A DNA stretch of 64,000 bases. Source: Rhodopseudomonas palustris (GTDB lineage: Bacteria; Pseudomonadota; Alphaproteobacteria; Rhizobiales; Xanthobacteraceae). The DNA is taken from positions 1-64,000 of the forward strand of contig JACRJB010000023.1 of assembly GCA_016215605.1 (NCBI GenBank). Reading direction: 5' to 3'. Of this stretch, positions 19,585 to 22,132 are shown piece by piece. A program made the translations under genes and the position numbers. Position 1 is the first letter of the stretch; every line of letters begins with the position of its first letter. The notes beneath the pieces are model-generated. The model was not told the DNA's origin. It saw only the letters and a list, made by a program, of their open reading frames with translations, and did no database searches.

Positions 19585-19956
19585 TCAGGTCATGCAGCGG
19601 CCAGGCTGGAGCTGCTTGGCGACGTCGGTCAGGACGCTGACGACCGGCTCGCAGGCCACCATGGCCCGACGGGGGGCGGCCGGCTGCTGAGCACGCGTGC
19701 GGGTGGCCTGCCCGACCTGGGCGTCCGGGACGCGGACCAGAACCGATTGGCCGACAAGAGTAACCCCGTAGGTCTGGCCAGGCTGTGCCTGCCCCGTGGT
19801 GGCCACTCGATCAGCCTTGTTGCCGCGATTGACGTCCTGCACCGCGCTTTCACGCAGGCTCTGCCGTCCGAGATCGCCGCCGACCGCCAATTGGGCAGCG
19901 CCCAACGTTCCGGCAATTGCGATGGCGCCCAAAATTCCCCGCACGATATGTGACAT
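19585..19956 (-). CDS. Hypothetical exported protein
   Basis: A 123-residue protein not recognised beyond a likely signal sequence (MSHIVRGILGAIAIAGTLGAAQLAVG). The rest is polar with the segment DRVATTGQAQPGQTYGVTLVGQSVLVRVPDAQ and two cysteines near the C-terminus (VACEPVV, GRCMT) that could form a periplasmic disulfide. It is monocistronic, with its own terminator at 19520-19550. No EcfG promoter was found upstream although it sits inside the stress island. Confidence 0.75.
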   Translation of the reverse strand: MSHIVRGILGAIAIAGTLGAAQLAVGGDLGRQSLRESAVQDVNRGNKADRVATTGQAQPGQTYGVTLVGQSVLVRVPDAQVGQATRTRAQQPAAPRRAMVACEPVVSVLTDVAKQLQPGRCMT

Positions 19957-20109: not shown

Positions 20110-20135
20110 GGAACGTTAGTCAGCCGCTCAACGTT
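20110..20135 (+). promoter_or_regulatory. EcfG promoter of a small RNA
   Basis: GGAAC (20110-20114), 17 nt, CGTT (20132-20135): exact EcfG elements at the alternative accepted spacing. No ORF follows; instead a terminator ends transcription about 80 nt later. Confidence 0.8.
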
Positions 20136-20141
20136 GTGCCG

Positions 20142-20223
20142 GCGCCGGTTAGTCCCCCTGCCCCAATTGACCGGTGATCCAGGGCGCAGCTGTGGTGATG
20201 CCAGCTGCGCCCTGTTCTTTTTG
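20142..20223 (+). ncRNA. Candidate EcfG-dependent small RNA (GsrN-like architecture)
   Basis: A free-standing transcription unit of about 80 nt beside phyR. It starts 6-7 nt after an EcfG -10 element. The 5' part can fold as CGCCGGTTA (20143-20151) against TGACCGGTG (20168-20176), 9 bp with G-U pairs, exposing a loop of about 16 nt with two C tracts (CCCCC and CCCC). The 3' part is a perfect 12-bp stem (20181-20192 with 20202-20213) followed by GTTCTTTTT, an intrinsic terminator. No coding frame is credible. Caulobacter GsrN, a SigT-dependent sRNA, has the same layout: a C-rich 5' loop that pairs with purine-rich leaders plus a terminator. Homology is inferred from architecture only. Confidence 0.72.
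20181..20223 (+). terminator. Intrinsic terminator of the small RNA
   Basis: AGGGCGCAGCTG-TGGTGATGC-CAGCTGCGCCCT followed by GTTCTTTTT. Perfect 12-bp stem with no coding gene immediately upstream on this strand. Confidence 0.88.
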
Positions 20224-20285
20224 ATAGATCTCGTCGCCATCGAGATCGGCAGACCGAGCCGCAGCCATTCCAAGTCTTTCTCATG

Positions 20286-20318
20286 AAAAAGCCGCCCGCG
20301 CCTGAGGCGCGAGCGGCT
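20286..20318 (-). terminator. Rho-independent terminator of phyR
   Basis: On the minus strand a 13-bp stem (AGCCGCTCGCGCC / GGCGCGGGCGGCT, one G-U pair, TCA loop) is followed by TTTTTC, about 20 nt after the phyR stop. Confidence 0.9.
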
Positions 20319-20336
20319 GATTCACCGATCGGACTA

Positions 20337-21143
20337 TCAGGACGCCGCGGCGTTGGGCGTCCTGTTGCGCGAATTGCGCTGGAAGAACAACGCCTGGCTG
20401 GCCACCGCTGAAACCATGGCCGGCTGGAACGGCTTCGAAATCAGAAACGCCGGCTCCGGACGCTCGCCGGTGAGGAAGCGTTCCGGATAAGCGGTGATGA
20501 ACACCACCGGTACCTCGAAGGTCTTCAGCAACTCGTTGACCGCGTCCAGGCCGGAGCTGCCGTCGGCGAGCTGAATGTCGGCCAGGATCAGGCCCGGCTT
20601 CTTGGTGCGGGCCAACGCGATCGCATCGGCATGGGTACGGGCAACGCCGATGACGTTGTGGCCGAGATTCTTGATCAGGCTCTCGATGTCCATCGCGATG
20701 AAGGTTTCGTCCTCGATGATCAGGACGTCCGTCGCGATCTCCTCGGCCATCTCGCGACCGGCGGCGTCGGCCAATTGACGGACCTCACCGACCTCGGTGT
20801 GGAGCACGAAGGCGACCTCTTCCTCAGAGAAACCTTCGAGCGACAGCAGCAGAAACGCCTGCCGCGGCAGCGGCGTGATCGCCGACAGCCGCCGCTCCGA
20901 CGGCATCGGCAGCGAACGGACTTCGGAGTCGTCATTCAGCGCGACGGAATTCCAGATTTGTGCAAATAGGCGGAAAAGACCCGCCCGCGGCCCGTGCCGC
21001 TCGTCGAGCAGGCTCGGATCCTGCAGCAGGGCCTCCAGCATCGCCGCGACATAGGCATCACCCGAAGCCTGACTGCCGGTCAGCGCCCGCGCATAGCGAC
21101 GCAGCAACGGTAAATGCTCGGCAACCAATTGCGATCTCGACAT
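20337..21143 (-). CDS. phyR: PhyR anti-anti-sigma response regulator
   Basis: A 268-residue PhyR, master activator of the alphaproteobacterial general stress response. The N-terminal part (about 1-135) is an ECF-sigma-like domain (LRRYARALTG start, SLEGFSEEEVAFVL region 4); the C-terminal part (about 138-258) is a receiver with acidic pocket Glu144/Asp145 and phosphoacceptor Asp189 (LILADIQLADG). When phosphorylated, PhyR sequesters NepR and frees EcfG. ATG 21143 with GGAG upstream is preferred over the in-frame ATG at 21182. It is divergent from nepR-ecfG, and a near-consensus EcfG promoter precedes it, implying positive feedback. Confidence 0.96.
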   Translation of the reverse strand: MSRSQLVAEHLPLLRRYARALTGSQASGDAYVAAMLEALLQDPSLLDERHGPRAGLFRLFAQIWNSVALNDDSEVRSLPMPSERRLSAITPLPRQAFLLLSLEGFSEEEVAFVLHTEVGEVRQLADAAGREMAEEIATDVLIIEDETFIAMDIESLIKNLGHNVIGVARTHADAIALARTKKPGLILADIQLADGSSGLDAVNELLKTFEVPVVFITAYPERFLTGERPEPAFLISKPFQPAMVSAVASQALFFQRNSRNRTPNAAAS

Positions 21144-21213
21144 CCCCACTCCGATCCTGAATTTATCGCGGCCCTTCACCAAGCGGGGCGGCCGGGCTCC
21201 CCTTCAGGCTACC

Positions 21214-21238: not shown

Positions 21239-21365
21239 ATCGACAGGGGGAACTTTACCGCTGCGACTGAATTAGGCTCCCAGTGACACTGCAAAACCTT
21301 CAAAAATCAAGCAAAACCCTAGCAGTTTCAGGGGACTTGACCATGGGGAAGACATTGGATCAGTC

Positions 21366-21587
21366 ATGAAAGATTTCAAGGCTCAGACAACCAAGAAGTC
21401 GGCGCCTGGCAGCAAAGGCGGCCTGAACCAAGAGATTCAGGCCCGGATCGGCCACCAGCTCCGTGCCATGTACGACGACGTCGTCAAGCAGGGCGTACCT
21501 GATCGGTTCGCCGACCTGATCAAGCGTCTCGACGAACCTCCTCAGGGCGGTCACGTCGCGGCGTCTGAAAGCGAGAGGAGGGACTAA
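21366..21587 (+). CDS. nepR: NepR anti-sigma factor
   Basis: A 73-residue NepR, which binds EcfG and is displaced by phospho-PhyR. The conserved core is visible as IQARIGHQLRAMYDDVVKQGVPDRFADLIKRLDE, two amphipathic helices that contact sigma regions 2 and 4. N- and C-terminal tails are low-complexity, as is usual. The stop TAA shares its last base with the ecfG ATG (TAATG), so synthesis of sigma and anti-sigma is translationally coupled. Confidence 0.95.
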   Translation: MKDFKAQTTKKSAPGSKGGLNQEIQARIGHQLRAMYDDVVKQGVPDRFADLIKRLDEPPQGGHVAASESERRD

Positions 21588-22132
21588 TGCCTCTCACAGA
21601 TTCTCTTCGCGACGACATTCTTGCCGCCGTCCCGAGTTTGCGCGCGTTCGCGATCTCGCTCAGCGGCAACGGCGACCGTGCCGACGACCTCGTGCAGGAA
21701 ACCTTGTTGCGCGCGCTCGCCAACATCGATTCCTTCCAGCCGGGTTCGAACCTCCCGGCGTGGTTGTTCACGATCTTGCGCAACCTGTTCCGGTCCGATT
21801 ACCGGAAGCGGCGGCGCGAGGTGGAAGATGCCGACGGCAGCTACGCCAAGACCCTGAAGTCACAGCCCGGCCAGAATGCTCATCTGGAGTTCGAGGAATT
21901 CCGGACGGCGTTGGATAAGCTTCCTCAGGACCAGCGGGAAGCTCTGATCCTGGTCGGCGCCTCCGGCTTCTCCTATGAAGACGCAGCCGCGATCTGCGGT
22001 TGCGCGGTCGGTACCATCAAGAGCCGCGTCAACCGTGCCCGTTCGAAGCTGAGCGCCCTGCTCTACGTCGACGGTGCTGAAGACTTCGGTCCCGATGACA
22101 CGGTGCGCGCCGTGATCGGCAGCAACGGCTGA
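21587..22132 (+). CDS. ecfG: General stress response ECF sigma factor EcfG
   Basis: A 181-residue ECF sigma factor. Region 2 covers about 10-80 (SGNGDRADDLVQETLLRALANIDSFQPG) and region 4 about 105-165 (LPQDQREALILVGASGFSYEDAAAICGCAVGTIKSRVNRARSKL). It directs RNA polymerase to GGAAC-N16/17-CGTT promoters, of which several exact copies lie within 6 kb. It is encoded with nepR and next to phyR and a sensor kinase, the standard arrangement of the system in Rhizobiales. Confidence 0.95.
   Translation: MPLTDSLRDDILAAVPSLRAFAISLSGNGDRADDLVQETLLRALANIDSFQPGSNLPAWLFTILRNLFRSDYRKRRREVEDADGSYAKTLKSQPGQNAHLEFEEFRTALDKLPQDQREALILVGASGFSYEDAAAICGCAVGTIKSRVNRARSKLSALLYVDGAEDFGPDDTVRAVIGSNG

Follow-up and report, generated by a model that had tools for sequence, protein, structure and literature searches.

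The stretch of DNA analysed here, which we call the window, comprises 64,000 nucleotides of Rhodopseudomonas palustris and includes the phyR, nepR and ecfG genes of the general stress response. Between phyR and a small divergent gene lies a short unit predicted to encode a small RNA (sRNA). The features of the locus are as follows, with positions given in the window.

15936, EcfG-type site ahead of or at the start of a CsbD-like gene
16582, minus strand, EcfG-type site ahead of or at the start of a short ORF of about 50 codons, hydrophobic-rich as read by eye
18142, minus strand, EcfG-type site ahead of or at the start of an L,D-transpeptidase gene
19585-19956, minus strand, small divergent protein upstream of the sRNA, family unassigned
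20110-20135, plus strand, EcfG-type promoter GGAAC-N17-CGTT, read directly (GGAAC 20110-20114, 17-nt spacer, CGTT 20132-20135)
20142-20222, plus strand, predicted sRNA transcript of about 80 nt, its start placed from the -10 element (+/- 2 nt)
20143-20176, plus strand, hairpin 1 (20143-20153 paired with 20166-20176), exposed C-rich loop CCCCCUGCCCC, the proposed seed
20180-20223, plus strand, intrinsic terminator with U tail, 13-bp perfect stem (20180-20192 with 20202-20214)
20290-20318, minus strand, terminator-like site belonging to phyR itself, from a terminator scan
20337-21182, minus strand, phyR, PhyR response regulator (NF006623, 6.4e-110, and PhyR domains), convergent with the sRNA
21366-21587, plus strand, nepR, anti-sigma factor (PF18557, 2e-16)
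21587-22132, plus strand, ecfG, sigma factor (NF009192, 1.1e-119), Shine-Dalgarno region GGAGGGACTAATG
24057, minus strand, EcfG-type site ahead of or at the start of an HWE kinase gene

The sRNA unit lies on the plus strand between two minus-strand genes, that at 19585-19956 and phyR, and the locus has as a further neighbour an HWE histidine kinase with a CHASE domain. The small protein of 19585-19956 gave zero matches when Pfam and NCBIfam were searched. A previous sequence-only reading of this DNA had claimed an EcfG promoter, GGAAC-N17-CGTT, ahead of the sRNA, and this promoter is indeed present at 20110-20135. By itself the exact pattern is not rare in the window, where five occurrences are seen against 0.94 expected; the five sites fit a local EcfG regulon, and the one at 20110 is the sole site that has no gene after it.

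Hairpin 1 presents a loop of 12 nt, CCCCCTGCCCCA, at 20154-20165, and the two tracts that the earlier reading had placed in a C-rich loop of a 5' hairpin, CCCCC (20154-20158) and CCCC (20161-20164), both lie inside it. The unit ends, as had been read, in a terminator with a perfect stem, but one of 13 rather than 12 bp, with a 9-nt loop, TGGTGATGC, and the tail TTCTTTTTG. Our terminator scan admitted loops of at most 8 nt and did not list this terminator because its loop exceeds that limit; phyR has a separate minus-strand terminator-like site (20318-20290), in agreement with the claim that the unit is free-standing. The folding energy of the 82-nt RNA is -43.3 kcal/mol against a shuffle mean of -24.5 (z -6.35), and none of 200 shuffles is as stable. 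ORFs of 67 aa on the plus strand and 64 aa on the minus strand can be drawn through the unit, and relatives differ in length by 1 or 2 nt, which would disrupt both frames.

Conservation and covariation of the RNA and its promoter

A BLAST search with the region matched 55 of the 198 genomes sampled from the window's family, and many of these matches start at 20144 (query position 85) and stop at the terminator, while the covariance model built for the unit matches the window at 20141-20224. An alignment of 30 relatives has a mean column identity of 80%; the stems vary, while GCCGG in the 5' arm, the greater part of the C-rich loop and the terminator-loop element GTGATGCC are invariant or almost so. 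Standard pairs occupy 98.6% of the pair cells in this alignment, and 13 of the 21 pairs have changed on both sides, a number that none of 500 shuffles reaches (mean 7.1). These shuffles ignore relatedness, and as a control that keeps it the pairing partner was slid by 1-3 columns, which leaves pairing at 27-52% and 0 to 4 double-changed pairs. The terminator helix, in which 11 of 14 pairs have double changes, holds most of the covariation, and in hairpin 1 within the near clade three of seven pairs are invariant and two have changed on both sides. The sRNA unit is a conserved RNA, with stem covariation well above the controls.

Searches with the covariance model, whose E-values are rough, detected the RNA at E <= 0.01 in 241 of the 391 family genomes, spread over 14 of 41 genera. 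The R. palustris genome itself carries a single copy by this model, with no paralogues at E <= 1. In a sample of the order, 23 of 397 genomes match, 21 of them within the window's family, and the two weak matches outside it were taken as chance. In a sample of the class, only 2 of 289 match, namely the own genome and one weak match on a stretch that has no phyR match; likewise, weak matches in other families (G238, G267, G831) lie on stretches with no phyR match and were taken as chance. Among the matches listed in a pattern scan were Bradyrhizobium (including B. diazoefficiens and B. japonicum), Tardiphaga and Afipia, together with many chance matches in other phyla, and the model confirms the sRNA in six of the scanned loci (L077, L083, L032, L034, L041 and L075).

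A set of members was then defined blind to the promoter, by a model spanning the RNA and three bases before it, at E <= 0.001 over 182 loci. The 117 matches reduce to 111 distinct members, from which the diverged members of genera g3 and g32 were left out; the members are related, many being Bradyrhizobium, and their counts are not independent. An upstream GGAAC no more than 45 nt away is present in 110 of the 111, and GGAAC-N16/17-NGTN in 108. The -10 element in these 108 reads AGTC in 61, CGTC in 27, CGTT in 11 and otherwise in 9. The commonest form, AGTC, departs from the CGTT of the EcfG consensus given in the sequence-only reading, which counts against the stress-promoter interpretation. 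The conservation on which that reading had staked its claim is borne out by the covariance check in relatives, which finds stems, promoter, C-rich loop and phyR proximity all conserved. The sole member without GGAAC is a second, altered sRNA copy (L134:2936-3017), about 1.1 kb from the first copy and with both conserved loops changed, which looks like a decaying duplicate. As a separate observation, the Bradyrhizobium-type promoters of L036, L113 and L141 have the AGTC -10 element within an inverted repeat (ACGACTC ... GAGTCGT) that spans the promoter and is possibly a site for an extra regulator.

The two conserved loops differ little among members: the exact string CUGCCC of the first is kept in 109 of 111, and GTGATGCC at 20196-20203, which overlaps the terminator loop, is present in all 30 aligned relatives and likewise in 109 of the 111 members, despite its covarying stem. 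This second element is possibly another seed or a protein site. Genome-wide, the terminator-loop pattern occurs 191 times with at most two mismatches, against 69 for a reversed control, and these 191 matches are taken to be mostly coding. Terminator-only copies with the GTGATGCC loop were seen in genus g25 (L375, genome G138, around 3206), about 1.5 kb downstream of the sRNA, and in genus g27 (L373, genome G026, around 1610), elsewhere in the genome.

The position of the sRNA is equally stable. In all 65 members with phyR on the fetched stretch, it is convergent with phyR and beyond the phyR 3' end, at a distance of 72-6486 nt; the remaining 46 of the 111 have no phyR match on the fetched stretch. 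In five further genomes (G064, G138, G026, G105 and G024), the distance between phyR and the sRNA ranges from 1.7 to 15.5 kb, with the orientation unchanged. Intact copies thus occur as far as 6.5 kb from phyR, and in G024 at a distance of about 15 kb, so the unit holds together as a gene of its own. In all 107 members in which a relative of the 19585-19956 protein was found, it lies divergently upstream of the sRNA, even with phyR farther off; four of the 111 have a fetched stretch without it.

Relation to GsrN and to earlier predictions

The closest studied analogue of this RNA is GsrN of Caulobacter crescentus, whose C-rich loop is the target-recognition element, pairs with G-rich sites and activates katG (PMC5869019). 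Homologues of GsrN are typically found near the general stress response locus, while C. crescentus gsrN itself is distal, and that study reports BLASTn hits of GsrN only within Caulobacteraceae (PMC5869019). The sequence-only reading had likened the layout at 20110 to that of GsrN, and in architecture it was right: the RNA has an EcfG-type promoter directly upstream, and with it predicted control by an EcfG-family sigma factor, a place at the phyR-nepR-ecfG locus and a 5' hairpin with an exposed C-rich loop. By description it also resembles the GsrN-like RNAs predicted in Rhizobium, Sinorhizobium, Agrobacterium and Brucella, which likewise have an EcfG site, a stress locus and a 5' C-rich loop (PMC5869019). 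However, it differs from GsrN in two respects, and the class sample shows no clear sequence kinship with it, one weak match having been found beyond the own genome among 289 genomes. There is no katG site, as the leader of the single katG gene offers no good pairing (-5.1 near the start and at best -7.9 over -260 to +60, where the median gene start gives about -6.1). Finally, the RNA described here has a second nearly invariant element, the terminator loop GUGAUGCC.

Homologues of gsrN have in fact been predicted in R. palustris and B. diazoefficiens, with an EcfG site and a position near the stress locus as the sole grounds (Tien, Fiebig and Crosson 2018, PMC5869019, Fig. 9A), and the caution of the earlier reading that the RNA may already have been predicted was therefore apt. 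The phyR-adjacent sRNA is very probably the homologue meant there, being of the same lineage and supported by the same kind of evidence; we base this identity on place and promoter, because the site at 20110 is the only EcfG-type site in the window that does not precede an ORF, and the text of PMC5869019 gives no sequence for the homologues of either species. A search of the open-access literature found no study of the R. palustris or B. diazoefficiens sRNA later than this one. What is new here relative to the 2018 prediction is the conservation, the covariation, the reach of the family and the terminator loop GUGAUGCC. What had been predicted in two species by location and promoter only thereby becomes a well-supported RNA family that spans Bradyrhizobium and Rhodopseudomonas.

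Rfam 15 gave no match in the window at gathering score, and an Rfam-based annotation would therefore miss the sRNA. At relaxed E-values only weak chance matches fall over it, the best being ncS01 at 19.6 bits against a cut-off of 58, and Rfam searches of 16 related loci gave nothing over the sRNA. One of the loci holding a family member also holds a fluoride riboswitch (L125:1974-2036). BjrC denotes sRNA families of Bradyrhizobium and Rhodopseudomonas that have Rfam entries. The BjsR sRNAs of the same bacteria (BjsR1-10) are listed with RpoD, RpoN or no predicted promoter (PMC5082802); no Rfam family of any kind, BjrC included, matches the window.

Proposed function, target predictions and alternatives

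Under stress, phosphorylated PhyR sequesters NepR, and EcfG is freed. We consider it likely that the unit at 20110 is a free-standing gene for a trans-acting general-stress sRNA, transcribed by EcfG, whose C-rich loop pairs with G-rich mRNA leaders. The promoter match and its conservation suggest that EcfG would read the promoter at 20110, giving a transcript of about 80 nt that stops at the terminator. The loop of hairpin 1 is the likely seed because the C-rich loop of GsrN in Caulobacter pairs with G-rich sites; it may pair with G-rich stretches of mRNA leaders, and such pairing would be expected to change the translation or stability of the targets. The terminator hairpin may shield the 3' end of the RNA; a further role is probable for its loop GUGAUGCC, which hardly varies. 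Such an RNA suggests that in Bradyrhizobium and Rhodopseudomonas the general stress response also has a post-transcriptional branch, and its C-rich loop and terminator loop offer two precise elements to mutate.

Predictions of individual targets are less conclusive. They cover the 829 gene starts that a simple ORF-calling script gave for the window plus 800 kb of its own genome (about 864 kb), and an unrestricted duplex ranking was dropped because duplexes of the whole hairpin dominate it. Strong sites per 250 gene starts number 18 for the real loop, against 22 for the reversed loop and 11 and 14 for permuted loops; further loops give 19 (Bradyrhizobium), 16 (g3) and 40 (reverse complement). 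At -22 to -8, where the real loop has 8 strong sites, the reversed loop has 14. The controls give similar numbers, and therefore no target from this single genome exceeds what composition provides. Pairing of the C-rich loop with purine-rich ribosome-binding sites, as the sequence-only reading had envisaged, is thus plausible but not favoured by these counts, and the search of the loop against mRNA leaders that it had suggested brought out no target above the composition controls.

The lack of a predicted target above these controls would also be expected if the C-rich loop titrates a protein, such as Rho, a cold-shock protein or another RNA binder, instead of pairing with mRNAs, and it is the cytosine content of the loop, with no exact sequence, that stays constant across lineages. 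We nevertheless regard titration as quite improbable, since the retention of CUGCCC in 109 of 111 near-clade members is more than a site defined by composition alone needs, and since GsrN works by pairing (PMC5869019). An unlikely, though somewhat better placed, explanation is that the RNA mainly feeds back on its own circuit, with UUAGUCCC covering the ecfG Shine-Dalgarno sequence (GGGACUAA) and so limiting translation of EcfG. These two sequences share eight contiguous complementary bases, and the accessibility-corrected energy for ecfG is -13.3 kcal/mol; furthermore, nepR and sigT RNAs are enriched with GsrN in Caulobacter (PMC5869019). This places ecfG at rank 38 of 829, however, which is only about the top 5%, and nepR only at rank 108. 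Moreover, much of the clade retains the ecfG leader GGGAGGGACTAATG as a ribosome site irrespective of the sRNA sequence, and the Bradyrhizobium sRNAs carry UUAUUCCC or CUAUUCCC without a matching change in the ecfG leader. Because this conserved ribosome site does not follow the changes in the sRNA, ecfG may be considered only a weak lead as a target.

That the unit is not regulatory at all, being the remnant of a terminator, the distal half of a terminator that serves phyR bidirectionally, a leader or a small ORF, is very improbable and strongly disfavoured. It is short and lies beside a gene end, and ORFs of 64-67 aa can be drawn in it; yet phyR has its separate terminator-like site, the unit remains intact at the distances from phyR given above, the promoter is kept, substitutions leave both hairpins intact, and any reading frame is broken by indels. 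A trans-acting, putatively EcfG-dependent sRNA remains the reading we prefer.

The nepR leader was tried as a target and set aside, as its upstream ORF and a CAGGGGACUU site had seemed promising on inspection but the leader reaches only the rank given above and the site is not in all relatives. In this leader (21329-21370), an 8-codon ORF starting with the ATG at 21343 overlaps the nepR start codon, and many near relatives retain the G-rich site that precedes this ORF. Translational coupling of nepR with this upstream ORF is possible.

Similar units beyond the near clade

With laxer filters, weak model matches appear in two further genera of the family, g3 and g32 (E 5e-5 to 0.005). All seven of these loci have phyR at least partly on the same stretch, and each has GGAAC upstream and a C-rich loop, which in L207 (g3) reads CCCCC-T-CCCCCC; their -10 element is irregular and the terminator loop GUGAUGCC/GTGATGCC is absent. 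We also scanned phyR loci in other genera and families for a combined unit of promoter, C-rich hairpin and terminator within 600 nt past the phyR 3' end. It was found at 16 of 84 distinct phyR loci, the window's included, against about 0.45 expected from shuffles (0.0053 per flank); at one of the 16 (L250) the same-strand hit looks spurious, and a convergent unit was found there by a separate scan. Elsewhere in the 372 kb scanned there were seven further combined units, two of them true members farther from phyR; the shuffle expectation over the entire set is 3.3. The other 68 of the 84 loci have no combined unit within 600 nt at the thresholds used, so either the unit is not universal or the filter was set too strictly; five loci known to hold members came out negative in a separate scan because their sRNA lies beyond the fetched flank.

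The units found in families f39 and f15 are convergent with phyR and those in family f26 are on the same strand as phyR, and units also occur in more genera of family f1. When 19 of the 5' hairpins from diverse lineages were folded, their stems differed in sequence and length, and the densest C stretch was unpaired at 0.76 or more in 16 of them. In the remaining three (two from f39, one from f15) it was unpaired at 0.45-0.66, in one case because the script chose a stem arm. With stems that differ and a C loop that is mostly unpaired across lineages, the shared parts are therefore GGAAC control, place and the C-rich hairpin loop.

We speculate, as a tentative possibility that we would not yet favour, that across a broad section of the order the PhyR-NepR-EcfG cassette has this RNA as a permanent fourth component. 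The RNA would have descended in place while the stems and the letters of the loop turned over, with only EcfG control and an exposed C-rich loop kept, and the Bradyrhizobium/Rhodopseudomonas clade would have gained a second contact site (GUGAUGCC), making the RNA a two-headed regulator that may also tune ecfG. On two stretches of genome G004 that have no phyR match (L213 and L219), we also observed two C-rich hairpin units, each with an upstream GGAAC.
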